From an uncultured Mycoplasmatota bacterium (GTDB lineage: Bacteria > Bacillota_I > Bacilli_A > Izemoplasmatales > Izemoplasmataceae), in NCBI GenBank assembly GCA_913062645.1, contig CAJXVW010000002.1, positions 365,433 through 429,432 on the forward strand: 64,000 bases of DNA, read 5' to 3'. The notes under the pieces were generated by a model, which saw only the letters and a program-made list of their open reading frames with translations, was not told where the DNA came from and did not search any database. Below, in pieces: positions 42,984-50,862 of this stretch. Position numbers and translations under genes: made by a program. Position 1 is the first letter of the stretch, and every line of letters begins with the position of its first letter.

Positions 42984-43175
42984 CTACTCGTCCTCACTCA
43001 TGATGCGTTTGATACGTTTATACAAAGTGGGGCGATCAATCATGACGATTCGATCGCACCCCATGCATTGCAGTTTGACATCCGCACCGGTACGAATCAC
43101 TTTCCATTTGTTCGCACCGCACGGGTGTTGCTTCTTTAATACCAGGATGTCCCCGATATCAATTGTCTTTTGCAT
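42984..43175 (-). CDS. DUF951 family protein
   Basis: 63 residues with the family pattern I-G-D-I-L-V-L-K-K-Q-H-P-C-G, W-K-V-I-R-T-G-A-D-V and a later C-M-G-C. The three cysteines and histidine may hold a metal. Overlaps the end of mscS, an arrangement frequent beside parB in Firmicutes. Confidence 0.9.
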   Translation of the reverse strand: MQKTIDIGDILVLKKQHPCGANKWKVIRTGADVKLQCMGCDRIVMIDRPTLYKRIKRIMSEDE

Positions 43176-44007
43176 TGTGAACCACTACTTGCGGGAACGG
43201 AATTTCGATGTCGTGTTTATTGAGATAGATTACCAGATCACGACGGATGTCTCGCTCGACTTGGAAATGCTGCATCGCTTTGGTCTTAGCGATGATCCGC
43301 ATGTTGATCGACGAGTCCGCCAGTTCCGTCACGCCGAGAAAACTAGGCCATTCGGTGATGTTTTCATACTTGTTGTTGGTTTCTTCCAAAAACGCCGGCA
43401 TCAGTTCCGTCAACCGCATCAAATCAGTATCGTAAGCAACACCAAAATCAACGATGGCGATGCTGTTGTTGCGAGAGAAGTTGATCAAACTGCCGATGTT
43501 CCCATTGTTGACGATGAGACGTTCACCTTTCCAGTTCTCAATGACGGTCGTACGCAAGCCGATTGTCAAAACAGTTCCTTTGAAGCCGTTCACTTCGACG
43601 ACTTCACCAACTTCGAACTCACTGTCGAAGATGATGAAGAAGCCGCTCATGAAATCACGCACGATTTCCTGTGCACCAAAACCGATTGCCAAACCGACAA
43701 CCCCAGCCGATGCAATGAACGGTGTCAGATCGACACCAAGATTCGACAGGACGACCATCAAAACGATGAACCAGACAAGATAGCGCACCAGACTTCGCAA
43801 GAGATTCGCAACCGTAAGGGCCTTGGGTCCTTTTTTCTTGACGCGCAGTATCTTGAAAATCACGAATTTGCTGATGCGATTGGTCACGATACCGATTAGA
43901 ATCCACAACGCAACATTCACGATGATCAGTATCAAATCGGAGAGATTCGCATTGAGATTCAGCGTTTCATTCAAAAATGTATAGATGATTTCTCCTAGTC
44001 CGTTCAC
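43159..44007 (-). CDS. Small-conductance mechanosensitive channel (MscS family)
   Basis: 282 residues. Three transmembrane helices; the pore-lining helix has A-S-A-G-V-V-G-L-A-I-G-F-G-A-Q, followed by the MscS beta domain with F-E-V-G-E-V-V-E-V and an alpha/beta C-terminus. Opens under membrane tension to release osmolytes. Overlaps parB by 4 bases. Confidence 0.94.
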   Translation of the reverse strand: MNGLGEIIYTFLNETLNLNANLSDLILIIVNVALWILIGIVTNRISKFVIFKILRVKKKGPKALTVANLLRSLVRYLVWFIVLMVVLSNLGVDLTPFIASAGVVGLAIGFGAQEIVRDFMSGFFIIFDSEFEVGEVVEVNGFKGTVLTIGLRTTVIENWKGERLIVNNGNIGSLINFSRNNSIAIVDFGVAYDTDLMRLTELMPAFLEETNNKYENITEWPSFLGVTELADSSINMRIIAKTKAMQHFQVERDIRRDLVIYLNKHDIEIPFPQVVVHNAKDN

Positions 44008-44846
44008 TTTTTACTACCTCCCGTGATTAGTTCGATGATGCGGTCCAGTTCTTCCTTATTGTCAAAGGGAAACACCAGCTGTGCTTTGCCAAGTTTGAAC
44101 TTGACATCGCTAGAAATACCTTGGCTGAGCATTTCCTTTTTCGTTTGCAGATATTCTTTGCTGATCGTTGTGGTCTTCGTGTTGATGTTGCGGATGATCC
44201 GCTCGATGTCGCGCACCGTAAGGTCCTCGGCAATGATCCGATCATGCAATGTCAGACAAAGCTGATGATCGCGAATCTTGCTGAGTGCCCGGGCATGTCC
44301 CATTGAGACGGTCCCTTGATTCACACTTTGTATGACGGTCGCCGGCAGGTTCAACAACCCGATTATGTTCGTGACATAGACACGGCTCTTACCAATCTTT
44401 TTGGCCAACTCGGCGTGGGTGATGCCGAGGTCAAACAATGCTTTCTGGAAGGCGATTGCTTCTTCAATCGGGGTGAGATCTTCGCGCTGCAGATTCTCGA
44501 GGATCGCCAGTTCGGACAAGTAAATCGAGTTGTAGTCACGAACAATCGCCGGTACCGTCTTCAGTCCAGCCAGCTCCGCTGCTTTGACACGTCGTTCGCC
44601 TGCCACCAGCATATAACCGTTGCTGACGGGTTTGAGGATGACTGGTTGGAACACGCCATGCTCACGAATCGATTGTGCCAATTCGTTCAGACTCTGTTCG
44701 TCGAAGATCGTGCGTGGCTGATTTGGATTCGGTCGAATTTGGCCAAGCTCGACTTCCATGACTTCTTCATTGTCATTGAACTCGGTCTTGTTTTCCTCTG
44801 CCAGTTCGGCAAAGCCGCGACCCAGTTTGTCTTTAGACTCGTTCAT
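44004..44846 (-). CDS. parB: ParB/Spo0J chromosome partitioning protein
   Basis: 280 residues. N-terminal CTPase domain with P-N-P-N-Q-P-R and G-E-R-R-V-K-A-A; then L-E-N-L-Q-R-E-D-L-T-P-I-E-E-A; helix-turn-helix near 130-155 (T-H-A-E-L-A-K-K-I-G-K-S-R-V-Y-V). Binds parS sites and loads condensin. No confident parS site was found by eye in the window. Confidence 0.95.
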   Translation of the reverse strand: MNESKDKLGRGFAELAEENKTEFNDNEEVMEVELGQIRPNPNQPRTIFDEQSLNELAQSIREHGVFQPVILKPVSNGYMLVAGERRVKAAELAGLKTVPAIVRDYNSIYLSELAILENLQREDLTPIEEAIAFQKALFDLGITHAELAKKIGKSRVYVTNIIGLLNLPATVIQSVNQGTVSMGHARALSKIRDHQLCLTLHDRIIAEDLTVRDIERIIRNINTKTTTISKEYLQTKKEMLSQGISSDVKFKLGKAQLVFPFDNKEELDRIIELITGGSKK

Positions 44847-45652: not shown

Positions 45653-45729
45653 TATATATATTTTATCATATATATACCCCATTTAACATATCAATCACCG
45701 GAAAGTTTTCCACAAATTTTTGTGGATAT
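45653..45729. promoter_or_regulatory. AT-rich dyad and paired DnaA-box-like sequences before parA
   Basis: The parA leader has an A/T dyad (eight bases TATATATA repeated about eight bases apart) and, at 45706-45729, TTTTCCACA facing TGTGGATAT, two near matches to the DnaA box TTATCCACA in opposite orientation. Together they also form a TCCACAAA / TTTGTGGA hairpin. Confidence 0.35.
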
Positions 45730-45730
45730 G

Positions 45731-46912
45731 TTACAGGTGCTCGCGGAATAAATCCTCGTTGTCAAGGTAGAAGTTCACCTGTTCGTATGAGATGAACTCA
45801 CGAAACTCCTTGGACAGGAACAACTCGGTAATCTGTTCGTGCGTCAAGGTATCTTTGATGTTGCCCCATTTGTCGAACTGGGTCACTTCGGTCTTCAGAT
45901 AACGATAGAGAATCGCCAGTGACAAGAGTTTGTCAATACGGTCATGAAGGAGTTCGTCCAGATTGTAATTGTATCGATTTTCTTCGTACGCATCACTCGG
46001 TTTGAACAACGTCGCGAAATCAAACAGGATCGACGTCAGCTCGCTGCGGCGATCGAGCAAGTATTTTTCGAGTTGTAGTGCGTAACGACGTGCGGTGACC
46101 GAAGCGTTCTTGTTGCCGACGATCTCCTCGATCTCCTGACCATGCAGGAAGAAGTAATACTCCACGACTTCGGTGATCTTGGCGGCGTCTTCTTCGAAGA
46201 ACTCGTTGATGAAGATGCACAATTCACCAATTGTCTGTTGGAATTTGTTGTCGCGATAGAGCGGTGTTTCATCGTGCTCTTCGAGCATCTCCATCAAATG
46301 GCGCTGGCTGAAGTCCTGATAGCGGCCGAGGATCTTGTTCATCCGCACCCATTCGTTGTTCATCTTTTCATAGATGTTGTCGGAAATGAGGAACTGAATG
46401 AGGAAGACGACATAGAATCCGGCAAGGATGATGATGTAGGTCTGCATCGAGACATCGGCGTTGATCGAGTTGGTGCCGATGATCGAGCCGCCCTTGTCGA
46501 TGATGTACCAGATGCCGTAGCCGGCGGTCGCACCGCCATACAGCAGATAGGTGACGATGTCCTGGTAGAAGATGACGACCGTGAGGGTTACGAAGAACAT
46601 GATGTAACCATAGAAGTGATTCGTTGTTGACGTGTAATACAGTGTCAGAATGATGATTGTGATGATCGAGGTGTGCATCGCGAAGCGGTTGAAGTTGACA
46701 ATCGTGAACAAAATCGTCAAAACGATCAACAGCGCCAGTGCAAGCGGGATGAACACGTCGATGTCGACGGTGAATTGGTTGATGCTGGAAATGGGAATGG
46801 TAAGCAAAATGAAAATGGTCTGAAACAGCGTAACGATCGCAACCTTGAGTCGAAGCACCTCACTGAAGGTCAGGAACTCGCTGTTGCGGATGCGCTCAAC
46901 GATGCGGTTCAT
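45731..46912 (-). CDS. Polytopic membrane protein of unknown function, first of a related pair
   Basis: 393 residues. Six hydrophobic segments fill residues about 20-190, then a long cytoplasmic, mainly helical, acidic domain (about 195-393) that includes R-R-Y-A-L-Q-L-E-K-Y-L-L-D. No family is recognised. Its end F-Y-L-D-N-E-D-L-F resembles the end of the upstream neighbour, D-V-Y-L-N-N-N-E-V-F, so the two are probably divergent paralogues. They sit between rsmG and parA, positioned as an operon. Confidence 0.75.
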   Translation of the reverse strand: MNRIVERIRNSEFLTFSEVLRLKVAIVTLFQTIFILLTIPISSINQFTVDIDVFIPLALALLIVLTILFTIVNFNRFAMHTSIITIIILTLYYTSTTNHFYGYIMFFVTLTVVIFYQDIVTYLLYGGATAGYGIWYIIDKGGSIIGTNSINADVSMQTYIIILAGFYVVFLIQFLISDNIYEKMNNEWVRMNKILGRYQDFSQRHLMEMLEEHDETPLYRDNKFQQTIGELCIFINEFFEEDAAKITEVVEYYFFLHGQEIEEIVGNKNASVTARRYALQLEKYLLDRRSELTSILFDFATLFKPSDAYEENRYNYNLDELLHDRIDKLLSLAILYRYLKTEVTQFDKWGNIKDTLTHEQITELFLSKEFREFISYEQVNFYLDNEDLFREHL

Positions 46913-48107
46913 AGTTCCATTCCTCCTTCAACAGATCGCTGACGACGGTGTCGAACACCTCGTTGTTGTTGAGGTAGACGTCAATCACATCACGATCGAT
47001 CAGATAGAAGTATTCCGAATACTGCAGCATGTCCTTGATCTGGTCCTCGTCCATCTCCTTGAGATAGGGTTTGTCGGTCTTGAGCATCACGTAAAATACA
47101 ACGAACGCAATGATCTTGACGTAGGTGTCGTCGGTTGTATGTTTGAATGACTTAAACTGCGACTCGGAGAAGATCTCCTTGCGACTGACTTCGATGTCCT
47201 TGGTTTTGCTCGCCTTGATGCCAATGTTGCGCATTTTGGTGTTGACGGCGAGCTCCATGTTCTTGATTTCATTGATCTGTTCGATGGTGTATTCCGGATA
47301 CTTTTCCAACAGATCCCCGATGTTGGTTTTCTTGAGATCCCGCAACAACTGGATTTTGCGAGCGAAGACATTCTCGATGCCGATTTTCTTTGACAACTCG
47401 GAGCTGAATCGTTCCAACGCCTTGTAGTAGGATTCACTGTTGAGTTTCTGTTTGGTCCGGATGTGTTCGATCTCCATCAGCAGATCCATGTTGCGAACTT
47501 CCGACTCCTTGATTTGCGCAAGGTGGTTGTAGAAGAAGGATTTTCGTTTGATGAGGATGTAGGACGACAATGTGAGAAGCATGACGAACAACAGCAAAAA
47601 GATGATGATGAACATGTTCTGAATGGCCGTATTGCCAGGTATGGAAAAGATTTGATCAAAACTCAGTGCGAGCAGGAACCCGCTGATGAACAGCGAGAAG
47701 TTGCTGATCAGCATGACCTTGTTTTCCTGATAGATCGACGTGATCGCATAGGCCAGAAACAGTGACGTGAAGATGCTTGGCGTCTGGAACAGAATGATCA
47801 GCGTCGTGGCGATGATGTATTCACCGATGGTGGTGACGTACATCGCCAATTTGAGGTTGTTGTACAGATCATCGGCCAGGGCGTAAAGACCAACGTTGAT
47901 GAGCAACAGCATCAGGAACATGAAGGACACGCCGAAGATGGTGCGTGACTCGACGTCCAAACGGAATAAGAAAAACGCCACGACAACCGCAAACACGACG
48001 TTGAGCACGTTGACAACGAGGGTTTTGGTTTTGATGTGGCGCAACTCCAGACTTTCCTTGTAGATTTCGAGTTGCTTGTACTTGTACTGTTCGTTGATCT
48101 GTCTCAT
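46896..48107 (-). CDS. Polytopic membrane protein of unknown function, second of a related pair
   Basis: About 403 residues. Six hydrophobic segments in residues about 25-190 and a helical cytoplasmic domain of about 200 residues. ATG at 48107 follows AAGGA at reasonable spacing; a GTG nine bases earlier is possible. It overlaps the downstream neighbour by 17 bases. Topology and size match that neighbour; see there. Confidence 0.75.
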   Translation of the reverse strand: MRQINEQYKYKQLEIYKESLELRHIKTKTLVVNVLNVVFAVVVAFFLFRLDVESRTIFGVSFMFLMLLLINVGLYALADDLYNNLKLAMYVTTIGEYIIATTLIILFQTPSIFTSLFLAYAITSIYQENKVMLISNFSLFISGFLLALSFDQIFSIPGNTAIQNMFIIIFLLLFVMLLTLSSYILIKRKSFFYNHLAQIKESEVRNMDLLMEIEHIRTKQKLNSESYYKALERFSSELSKKIGIENVFARKIQLLRDLKKTNIGDLLEKYPEYTIEQINEIKNMELAVNTKMRNIGIKASKTKDIEVSRKEIFSESQFKSFKHTTDDTYVKIIAFVVFYVMLKTDKPYLKEMDEDQIKDMLQYSEYFYLIDRDVIDVYLNNNEVFDTVVSDLLKEEWNYEPHR

Positions 48108-48123
48108 GCAAGGCACATCCTTG

Positions 48124-48810
48124 TCAGAGTGGTTTAGATTTTATTTTGCTGAATTTCCGTGGATACTTACCAGAAGACGGGGCGATTTTACGAACCATGA
48201 TGATCGATCGTGCATAATCCCCGACCTCATATTCCAATACCCCTTTCAACTCGGCGTTCATCAGATCCAAGCCGTGTTTCATGAGTTTGATCTCATCTTG
48301 GTAATTGGGGCCTTTCATGGCGAGGAAAGAACCTCCGGGGCGTACGAATGGGACACAAAGTTCCGACAACACCGGCAACGCGGCGACGGCTCGGGCAGTG
48401 ACCAGATCGTAATGATTCTTGCGCGGGTGTTCCTCGGCCCGGCCGTGAATCAGTTCGACGTCGATGTCGAGTCGATCAACCAATGTCTCGAGGAACCGGA
48501 TTCGTTTCTGAAGGGCGTCGATGATCGTCACCCGCAACGCAGGAAACATGATTTTGAGCGGCACCGACGGGAACCCGGCGCCACTACCGACATCAAGAAG
48601 CGTCTGATCGGACAGGGGTCGCGCCTTCAGCAGGCACAAACTGTCGTAGAAATGTTTCAAGAACACTTCGTCCTGATCGGTGATCGATGTCAGATTCATC
48701 TGCGCATTCCATTCCAACAACAAGTCGTAGTAGGTGTGAAACTGATTCCACTGCCGTTCGGACAGTTCCAAATCAAGATCGTGAAGCAGTGAAATGAAAT
48801 ATTCGTTCAT
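48124..48810 (-). CDS. rsmG: RsmG (GidB), 16S rRNA G527 methyltransferase
   Basis: 228 residues, SAM-dependent. Motif L-L-D-V-G-S-G-A-G-F-P-S-V-P-L is the SAM-binding loop; the R-A-V-A-A-L-P-V-L-S segment follows. Start at M-N-E-Y-F-I-S with an AGGTGATA site. Next to mnmG, as in many bacteria. Confidence 0.95.
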   Translation of the reverse strand: MNEYFISLLHDLDLELSERQWNQFHTYYDLLLEWNAQMNLTSITDQDEVFLKHFYDSLCLLKARPLSDQTLLDVGSGAGFPSVPLKIMFPALRVTIIDALQKRIRFLETLVDRLDIDVELIHGRAEEHPRKNHYDLVTARAVAALPVLSELCVPFVRPGGSFLAMKGPNYQDEIKLMKHGLDLMNAELKGVLEYEVGDYARSIIMVRKIAPSSGKYPRKFSKIKSKPL

Positions 48811-48859: not shown

Positions 48860-48891
48860 TTATAAAAAATAATAGACCCCATCAGGGTCTA
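48860..48891 (-). terminator. mnmG terminator
   Basis: TAGACCC / GGGTCTA with a 5-base loop and a T-rich tail on the minus strand; the mnmG stop codon is in the loop. Confidence 0.85.
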
Positions 48892-50744
48892 TCATTCAAG
48901 GTCTTCAAGTGGATCAAGAGAATCGATATGTCAGCCGGATTGACGCCACTGATGCGAGATGCCTGGCCAATCGTCAGCGGTTTGATTTTGCGAAGTTTCT
49001 CTCTTGCTTCCAGCGCCAGATTGGAAATGGATTGATAGTCGATCGTTGCGGGGATCTTGTAATCTTCCATTTTGAGCATCTTGTCCGCCTGTTTGAGGGA
49101 CTTCTCGATGTAACCTTCGTATTTGACATCAATCTCCACCTGTTCGATTTCCACGTCTTGGAAGGGGGTGAGATCGATCCATTGAACAAAGTCACGGAGG
49201 GACAATTCGGGACGGCGCAACAGTGCATAGAGTGATGTCTTGTCCTTGAGATCCGTACTGCCGAGCGCACGAACTTGGGCGTTGGTTTCGTCATTCGGAT
49301 AGAGCATCGTTTCCGCCAGCATCGTCTTCAAAATCGCAATGTTGTTGCATTTGCGCTGGAACGCCAGATAGCGCGTCTCATCAACCAACCCGATGTCGTG
49401 TCCGTACGCACGGAGTCGGATATCGGCATTGTCGTGACGCAGCAACAGACGGTATTCGGCGCGGGATGTCAAGAGTCGATAGGGATCGTTGACGCCCTTG
49501 GTGACGAGATCATCGATGAGAACACCAATGTAGGCTTCGCTGCGCTTGAGCACGAAGGGGTCTTTGCCTTCGAGCTTACGGCATGCGTTGATGCTGGCCA
49601 TGAGTCCCTGACAGGCGGCTTCTTCGTAGCCGCTGGTGCCATTTACCTGACCTGCGAAATAGAGGTTCGGGTAAGTTTTGCTCTCTAGTGTGGGATACAA
49701 ATCACGTGGGTCGATCGCATCGTACTCGATGGCATAGGCGTAGCGTGCGATCTCCGCGTTTTCGAGTCCGGGAATGGACTTGATCATGCGTTCTTGAACA
49801 TCGTGCGGCATGGACGTCGAAAATCCTTGAACGTACGTCTCATCAAGGAATTTGCTTTCCGGTTCGAGGAACAACTGGTGACGAGGTTTGTCAGCGAACC
49901 GCACGAGTTTGTCCTCGATCGAAGGACAATAGCGGGGTCCCACGCCTTCGACGGCGCCACTATACATCGATGATTTCTCGAGGTTGCGGTTGATGACGCC
50001 ATGGGTCGCATCGGTCGTATACGTGAGGTAGCATGGTTCCTGGTTATCGACATCGTAGTAGGTGACATTGTCGTAACTGAAATGTTGAACGTTCGGATCG
50101 CCGTCGTGGCGCTCGGTCTTGGTAAAATCGATCGTTGCCGTTTTGATGCGCGGCGGTGTGCCGGTTTTGAGTCGTGAAGTCTTGAATCCCATCTCGCGAA
50201 GTTGTGGGGACAACCCAAGCGATGCCTTTTGTTTGTCAGGGCCGCTTTTGGTGACCGAGTCGCCGACGAGAATCTTGGCCTGCATGTAGGTGCCGGTCGT
50301 GACGATGACCGTCTTGCCGTAGTGCAAATCGCCATTCTCGAGGCGAACGCCCTTGATTTCGCCATCTTCGACATGAAGTTTGTCAACGTAGGCTTCGATG
50401 ACATCCAAATGGGGTTGATGAAATATGGTTTTCTTCATCTCCTGGGGATACCGTACTTTGTCGTTTTGAGACCGCAAGGCGCGAACGGCGGGGCCTTTGG
50501 ATACGTTCAAAAACCGCATCTGCAGGGTCGTCTTGTCGGCGTTTCTCGCCATCTCCCCGCCCAATGCGTCGATTTCGCGGACCACGATCCCCTTCGCCGG
50601 TCCACCAATCGATGGATTACACGGCATGGAGGCAATCATGTCGACATTGCCCGTTACGAGCAGTGTCTTGTGGCCCAGTCTTGCGGCGGCCAGACACGCT
50701 TCACTACCGGCGTGTCCGCCCCCGATGACAATCACATCATACAT
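48882..50744 (-). CDS. mnmG: MnmG (GidA), tRNA U34 carboxymethylaminomethyl synthesis enzyme
   Basis: 620 residues. Begins [16 protein letters not shown], the FAD-binding loop; [13 protein letters not shown] follows, then G-T-Y-M and the cysteine-containing [10 protein letters not shown]. With MnmE it modifies the wobble U. MnmE is not in the window. Start at 50744 is preferred because AAAGGTG is six bases upstream; codons before it are open but not needed. Confidence 0.96.
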
Positions 50745-50862
50745 GGGCATCACCTTTTCGTCCTTATTGTATTACGTCCCCTCGCATTAGTAAAGCATAT
50801 AACAGTTCAAATTCTTTAAATATTCACAAGTTCATATTATAATGATACCAAGAGGTGATACC

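Follow-up and report, generated by a model that had tools for sequence, protein, structure and literature searches.

A duplicated membrane protein, likely of degenerate HD-GYP type, fixed beside parA in Izemoplasmatales

To our knowledge, integral membrane proteins that partner chromosomal ParABS systems are few. In Bacillus, Noc is encoded between rsmG and parA, and the two proteins considered here, MemB and MemA, are likewise membrane-linked factors encoded between these genes; unlike Noc, they are integral membrane proteins in which no DNA-binding family was found. Noc, a ParB paralogue, attaches to the membrane through an amphipathic helix (PMC4331003). Among membrane cyclases, ImcA is a homodimer whose six membrane helices are needed for its activity (PMC10904736). 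For HD-GYP proteins, PMC4159591 lists the eight metal ligands of an active enzyme, describes the inactive protein Bd1817, in which the Tyr of GYP is missing, as binding two irons, and hints that HD-GYP proteins that have no activity may serve in binding and/or protein interaction. What is new here is what the pair is likely to be: a degenerate HD-GYP membrane protein that was duplicated and has a fixed place next to parA.

The whole stretch of DNA that was analysed, 64,000 nucleotides in length (G000:C2:365433-429432, G000 being the window's own Izemoplasmatales genome), is called the window. The genes of the locus are as follows.

48882-50753, minus strand: mnmG (Pfam GIDA, E 3.1e-161)
48124-48804, minus strand: rsmG (Pfam GidB, E 3.3e-51), upstream of memB with a gap of 16 nt
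46896-48107, minus strand: memB, first gene of the pair, 403 aa with the ATG at 48107, present in 48 of 61 genomes (its own included)
45731-46912, minus strand: memA, second gene of the pair, 393 aa
44833-45612, minus strand: parA (Soj; Pfam AAA_31, E 2e-64)
44004-44846, minus strand: parB (Spo0J; Pfam ParB_N and HTH_ParB)
43159-44007, after parB: gene for an MscS-type channel (Pfam)

An in-frame GTG at 48116 is an alternative start for memB. As the ORFs of the window stand, the last 17 nt of memB are shared with the start of memA, and the two genes overlap in 37 of 40 loci, most commonly by four bases, with starts chosen by script.

That memB and memA are paralogues which arose by duplication, as the earlier note had supposed, is well supported by comparison of their sequences. 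The memA-family and memB-family profiles aligned with each other over 353 columns (E 3.9e-16), and significant alignments were obtained with the N-terminal halves alone (E 7e-6) and with the C-terminal halves (E 6.2e-8). The memB family file excluded rows of 320 aa or less (one row). Plain BLASTP of the window proteins against the relatives gave no memA/memB cross-hit at E 1e-4. In a tree sampled from 16 of 26 memA rows and 16 of 26 memB rows, memA and memB grouped together with a support of 89/75 (not starred), at a point where long branches meet; an AU test did not reject the grouping of memA or of memB with the single copy found in family f10, described below (p 0.165 and 0.225). The ending Y-L-x-N-x-x-x-F, previously noticed as shared, occurs once in each protein (residue 382 of MemA, residue 378 of MemB). 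Among the relatives and the window together, its strict form was retained in 11 of 41 MemA and 12 of 40 MemB proteins and a looser form, [FY]xxNxxxF, in 28 of 41 and 31 of 40, the MemB set leaving out one truncated row (L088).

At the sequence level, no characterised family was found to hold the two proteins. Searches of Pfam (both proteins and the aligned relatives of both), of NCBIfam (MemB relatives, MemA) and, with profiles, of PDB sequences gave weak, scattered matches only, and the Pfam and NCBIfam scans of MemA and MemB pointed to no membrane-sensor family and no DNA-binding family. The lowest E value, 0.00016 for CENP-B_N in 2 of 23 MemB rows, was judged to be chance, as were matches at E 0.0015 and 0.0016 in one row each. 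Identification as a transporter or channel was rejected because no family search pointed to it. Among the open-access papers searched, no description of such a membrane pair was recognised. A second weak match to memA in its own genome (E 4.9e-4) lay on the opposite strand of a metal-binding-lipoprotein-like ORF and was also attributed to chance.

The membrane parts were placed as follows.

47547-48050, minus strand: six-helix membrane domain of MemB, about residues 20-187 (AlphaFold2, hydropathy, loop charges)
46370-46867, minus strand: six-helix membrane domain of MemA, about residues 16-181 (AlphaFold2, hydropathy)

For both proteins AlphaFold2 predicted six membrane helices followed by a helical C-terminal domain, with a sixth helix of about 60 residues that extends from the membrane into the cytoplasm. 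The ORFs and models agree with the earlier description of two adjoining genes for proteins of this build. The models were moderate (pLDDT 80.1 and 77.3, pTM 0.49 and 0.52, for MemA and MemB in that order), the fifth helix of MemA was weakly hydrophobic (best 17-residue mean 0.98), and counts of K and R in the loops roughly fitted a cytoplasmic placement of both ends of each protein.

By fold only, the predicted membrane part resembles that of membrane adenylyl or diguanylate cyclases, which we treat as a lead that falls below proof. With VIA-align, which ranked only chains that Foldseek offered, the top five rows for MemB and the top two for MemA were such cyclases. For MemB these were AC9 (7pd4, Z 14.4, rmsd 2.9 over 174; 9u3q, 13.8), ImcA (8wcn, 13.4), AC8 (8buz, 12.2) and Rv1625c (7yzk, 9.6), followed by an unrelated protein at 8.6; for MemA they were ImcA (Z 12.2, rmsd 5.2 over 163) and Rv1625c (10.2), followed by a value of 8.8. 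A best Z of about 14 is typical of mostly helical models that have no true relative. The argument for the likeness is therefore that the top rows agree, not the size of Z. In Foldseek searches against the PDB, neither model matched at E 0.001 or better, the best E values being 0.15 and 0.46, to other proteins. Like ImcA, Rv1625c/Cya and mammalian AC8 and AC9, MemA and MemB are predicted to have six membrane helices of which the sixth enters the cytoplasm; unlike these cyclases, they carry no cyclase domain after it, and identity in the aligned part was 5-13%.

The C-terminal domains carry the main finding.

46923-47447, minus strand: predicted degenerate HD-GYP domain of MemB, about residues 221-395 (hhalign to HD-GYP, E 5.7e-6)
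45737-46249, minus strand: C-terminal domain of MemA, about residues 222-392, paralogous to that of MemB and more diverged from HD-GYP

The HD-GYP identity was first suggested by reading the sequence against the HD-GYP consensus; this decayed likeness was absent from the earlier note. The HD-GYP profile used for comparison consisted of 32 domains from loci L133-L170, found by searching the window's own genome and 12 relatives; the domains were picked for intact HD.GK and HHE..[DN]G.GYP motifs, so their motif counts are given by construction. The C-terminal profile of MemB aligned with it over 153 columns at E 5.7e-6 and a raw score of 42.4 (hhalign). For comparison, the highest score was 17.7 among 40 versions of the HD-GYP profile with shuffled columns and 21.6 among five unrelated neighbour families. 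The corresponding domain of the f10 copy reached E 4e-5, and that of a further set of proteins, family C, E 5e-18. MemA alone gave no significant direct match (E 0.13; its score of 15.8 was within its own shuffle range, which extended up to 21.8), and its domain aligned with those of the f10 copy (4e-12), MemB (6.2e-8) and family C (3e-4). MemB and the f10 copy matched each other at E 1.6e-10. The alignment of MemB runs along the HD-GYP domain, and the two are alike in the turn that follows the HD place, in a K-P-Y preceding the L..E.I helix and in the final D..V..F helix; in the joint alignment, the Y-L-x-N-x-x-x-F ending starts in that final HD-GYP helix and extends just past it. Descent of the MemB domain from HD-GYP domains is thus well supported by profile comparison, and the MemA domain would join them by way of its paralogues, solely through MemB and the f10 copy.

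Proteins intermediate between the pair and HD-GYP domains were also found. Class-wide, the memB profile had matches in 52 of 395 genomes; of these, the match in G260 looks like chance and that in G180 is an ordinary HD-GYP protein. Phylum-wide it matched in 16 of 392 genomes, each inside this class. In f10, another family of the same class, there is a single copy at the par genes, to which both profiles matched, that of memB at 2e-18 to 7e-29 and that of memA at 4e-8 to 1e-18. Family C consists of ORFs of 414-544 aa in families f1, f3, f10, f12, f16 and f22, in which a matching membrane part is joined to a degenerate HD-GYP domain. These have the same domain order as MemB and MemA and were matched by the memB or f10 profile together with the HD-GYP profile, but their HD-GYP part, unlike that of the pair, is still directly recognised (2e-7 to 6e-17). 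Two f10 members, L202 and L203, matched both the memB profile (8.7e-15 and 2.5e-14) and the HD-GYP profile (2.6e-9 and 1.4e-8); they are the two with long flanks and, unlike memB and memA, lie away from par genes. L208 and L209 matched the HD-GYP and memB profiles, memB more weakly (about 1.5e-5), and L246-L253, from f12, f16 and f22, matched the HD-GYP (2e-7 to 2e-14) and f10 profiles. The window's own genome has a family C ORF of 544 aa on another contig than the window (L225, G000:C1:560710-562341), which matched the HD-GYP profile at 6.6e-15, also matched the f10 profile and, at 27.5 bits, narrowly exceeded the Pfam HD_5 cut-off of 27.2. An HD-GYP line that has lost its catalytic motifs and retained its domains is spread over several families of the class.

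The position of the pair was examined in flanked loci from 40 of the 47 other genomes with memB, leaving out G008, G023, G034, G035, G036, G048 and G059. The order mnmG-rsmG-memB-memA-parA-parB was found wherever the contig reached. rsmG adjoins memB in 39 of 39 testable loci and parA adjoins memA in 38 of 39, all but G018; the place of the pair, which the earlier note had asked of relatives, is thus conserved and constantly beside parA. Together with the single copy of f10, which sits in the order mnmG-rsmG-copy-parB-like gene-parA in 8 of 8 loci (all eight sampled f10 genomes listed with parA), this is the constant linkage expected of a ParABS accessory. mnmG and rsmG were separated by about 1.2 kb in two loci (L074 and L092). 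A contig scan with memB alone gave no match, and the same scan with the memA profile gave 27 loci, partly from the same genomes: memB and memA were both present in all 27, and parA stood beside the pair in 24 of the 25 in which the contig continues, the exception (L122) being contig C4 of G018.

At E 0.001, the threshold also used for memB, memA was found in 49 of 61 genomes, a count that includes a short, weak match in G043 of family f2 that we regard as chance. Six f1 genomes appeared to have no pair. Four of them (G005, G030, G031 and G032) also gave no rsmG, and in the other two (G011 and G014) the contig stops within or just after rsmG, so these absences are read as assembly gaps. In G040 (L093) rsmG, and in G044 (L095) parA, was split into two ORFs, for which frameshift, sequencing error or decay are all possible.

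The reading that we prefer, to which we would give about an even chance, is that memB and memA encode a translationally coupled membrane receptor or scaffold pair of pseudo-enzymes that acts on ParA/ParB. An action on chromosome segregation is plausible from the location. The overlap of the paralogous genes and the long sixth helices suggest a heterodimer, in which the two chains would lie side by side and pair through the sixth helix. The six-helix domain would sense the membrane or a ligand, and the dead HD-GYP domains would relay its state by touching other proteins; a six-helix receptor whose output domain is dead points to a contact-based role in signalling or scaffolding. The partners would probably be ParA and/or ParB at the membrane, as the location beside the par genes suggests. 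These last two steps, contact signalling or scaffolding and the choice of partners, are the weakest. If the reading holds, a conserved pseudo-enzyme pair beside parA would be a candidate route from membrane state to segregation in wall-less bacteria.

It is possible, if somewhat unlikely, that the pair signals something else, such as envelope or osmotic state or c-di-GMP, and merely shares an old par block through operon inertia. In G018 (96% complete; L098), memB, memA and parB are retained and parA is missing from between memA and parB, with no strong parA elsewhere in the whole genome (best E 2e-4). Because the pair is kept there without parA, it is not simply a ParA accessory. This genome suggests either a function independent of ParA or one directed at ParB or DNA. 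With starts chosen by script, 37 of 38 loci have 3-21 nt between rsmG and memB, and the gap from memA to parA ranges from 3 to 184 nt (38 loci); in part of f1 this second gap contains two further elements.

45706-45729, minus strand: inverted repeat just after memA, degenerate in the window, with DnaA-box arms in relatives
45659-45670, minus strand: promoter-like TATGATAAAATA before parA, seen by eye in the window and in the gaps of relatives

In f1 loci L062-L071 the arms of the hairpin are facing DnaA boxes, GTTATCCACA...TGTGGATAAC, and in 8 of these 10 relatives, which were picked after the hairpin had been noticed, both arms are perfect or nearly perfect copies of the DnaA box TTATCCACA. 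Sixteen of the 18 perfect TTATCCACA sites in the 132,907 bases of these loci fall in the hairpin, with two per hairpin in seven loci, one in two and none in L062. On its own strand the hairpin was predicted at -9 to -17 kcal/mol, and in most of the ten it is followed by T's and then by the promoter-like stretch. The copies in the window, L084, L100 and L101 are variants, and no hairpin was seen by eye in other f1 loci (e.g. L072 and L081) or in short-gapped f3 loci. From its sequence the hairpin may act in termination, in DnaA binding or in both roles; with the promoter-like stretch between memA and parA, co-transcription is doubtful in that part of f1, in line with inertia. The MscS-type channel after parB in 13 of the 40 loci (some contigs end earlier) likewise illustrates that unrelated membrane genes can live here. 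Against mere inertia, the linkage has been kept in f1, f3 and, as a single copy, f10, and f2 lacks the pair and parA alike: rsmG was found in five of the seven f2 genomes, all five being without pair and strong parA, and none of the seven has a strong parA or a credible pair. As f2 is one genus, this joint loss was probably one event. At f2 loci L219, L221, L222 and L224, mnmG and rsmG are present, with no parA, parB or pair within 3-8 kb beyond rsmG; at L220 the contig ends beyond rsmG.

The fate of the catalytic residues bears both on the preferred receptor or scaffold pair and on a rather doubtful alternative, that the pair is a receptor for a second messenger, its C-terminal domain being still able to bind c-di-GMP or some other nucleotide but not to cut it. 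None of 40 MemB, 41 MemA, 8 f10 and 13 family C proteins carries HD.GK or HHE; GYP occurs in one of the 40 MemB and in none of the other three sets. This loss of the metal and GYP motifs means that the domains probably do not cut c-di-GMP, and by their sequences MemB and MemA are probably not phosphodiesterases. They differ from Bd1817, which still binds two irons (PMC4159591), whereas MemB and MemA are without HD.GK and HHE and, in all but one copy, without GYP. A binding role finds some encouragement in the histidine at the HD position of MemA (residue 257), kept in 41 of 41, and in the binding and/or protein-interaction roles of inactive HD-GYP proteins at which PMC4159591 hints. The window's own genome also has eight HD_5 matches, two of them in one frame and one of them the degenerate family C protein, and one of its proteins reads as GGDEF plus HD-GYP. 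In the joint alignment, by contrast, the other ligand positions of the window's MemB and MemA were read as changed, the one exception being MemB's D at the HD place (as in 18 of 40 MemB proteins), and the MemB stretch that matches the GYP loop was poorly modelled by AlphaFold2.

In a fuller version of the preferred reading, which taken whole we consider quite unlikely, a cyclase-like heterodimeric receptor with dead HD-GYP domains would link ParA/ParB to the state of the membrane or to extracellular conditions and would also reach replication control by way of the DnaA-box hairpin, replacing Noc's membrane link in these wall-less bacteria. Still less probable is a direct substitute for Noc, in which the duplicated protein would take on Noc's task in Bacillus of tethering ParB-DNA complexes to the membrane. 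Against such a tether, dead HD-GYP domains that bind ParB are not known to us. In its favour, f10 loci have one copy and a second parB-like gene, whereas Izemoplasmatales loci have two copies and one parB; from its position before parA, the f10 parB-like gene is possibly noc. Noc itself recruits DNA to the membrane (PMC4331003). Finally, it is quite improbable that the C-terminal domain is an unrelated helical fold with a chance likeness to HD-GYP, as the direct MemA match at E 0.13 and the VIA-align and Foldseek searches with both whole models, in which no HD structure was listed and the membrane part filled the lists, might suggest, since the decoy and shuffle controls and the intermediate proteins speak for descent of the MemB domain.

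Despite the presence of parA and parB, the 64-kb window contained no site within three mismatches of TGTTTCACGTGAAACA, which we take to be the parS consensus. The earlier note had set the pair at the origin, of which the nearness stands and the exact position does not: the memB-memA locus is origin-proximal, with memB approximately 99 kb from the dnaA match in G000, 83 kb in G001, 92 kb in G002, 100 kb in G012, 74 kb in G040 and 70 kb in G044.
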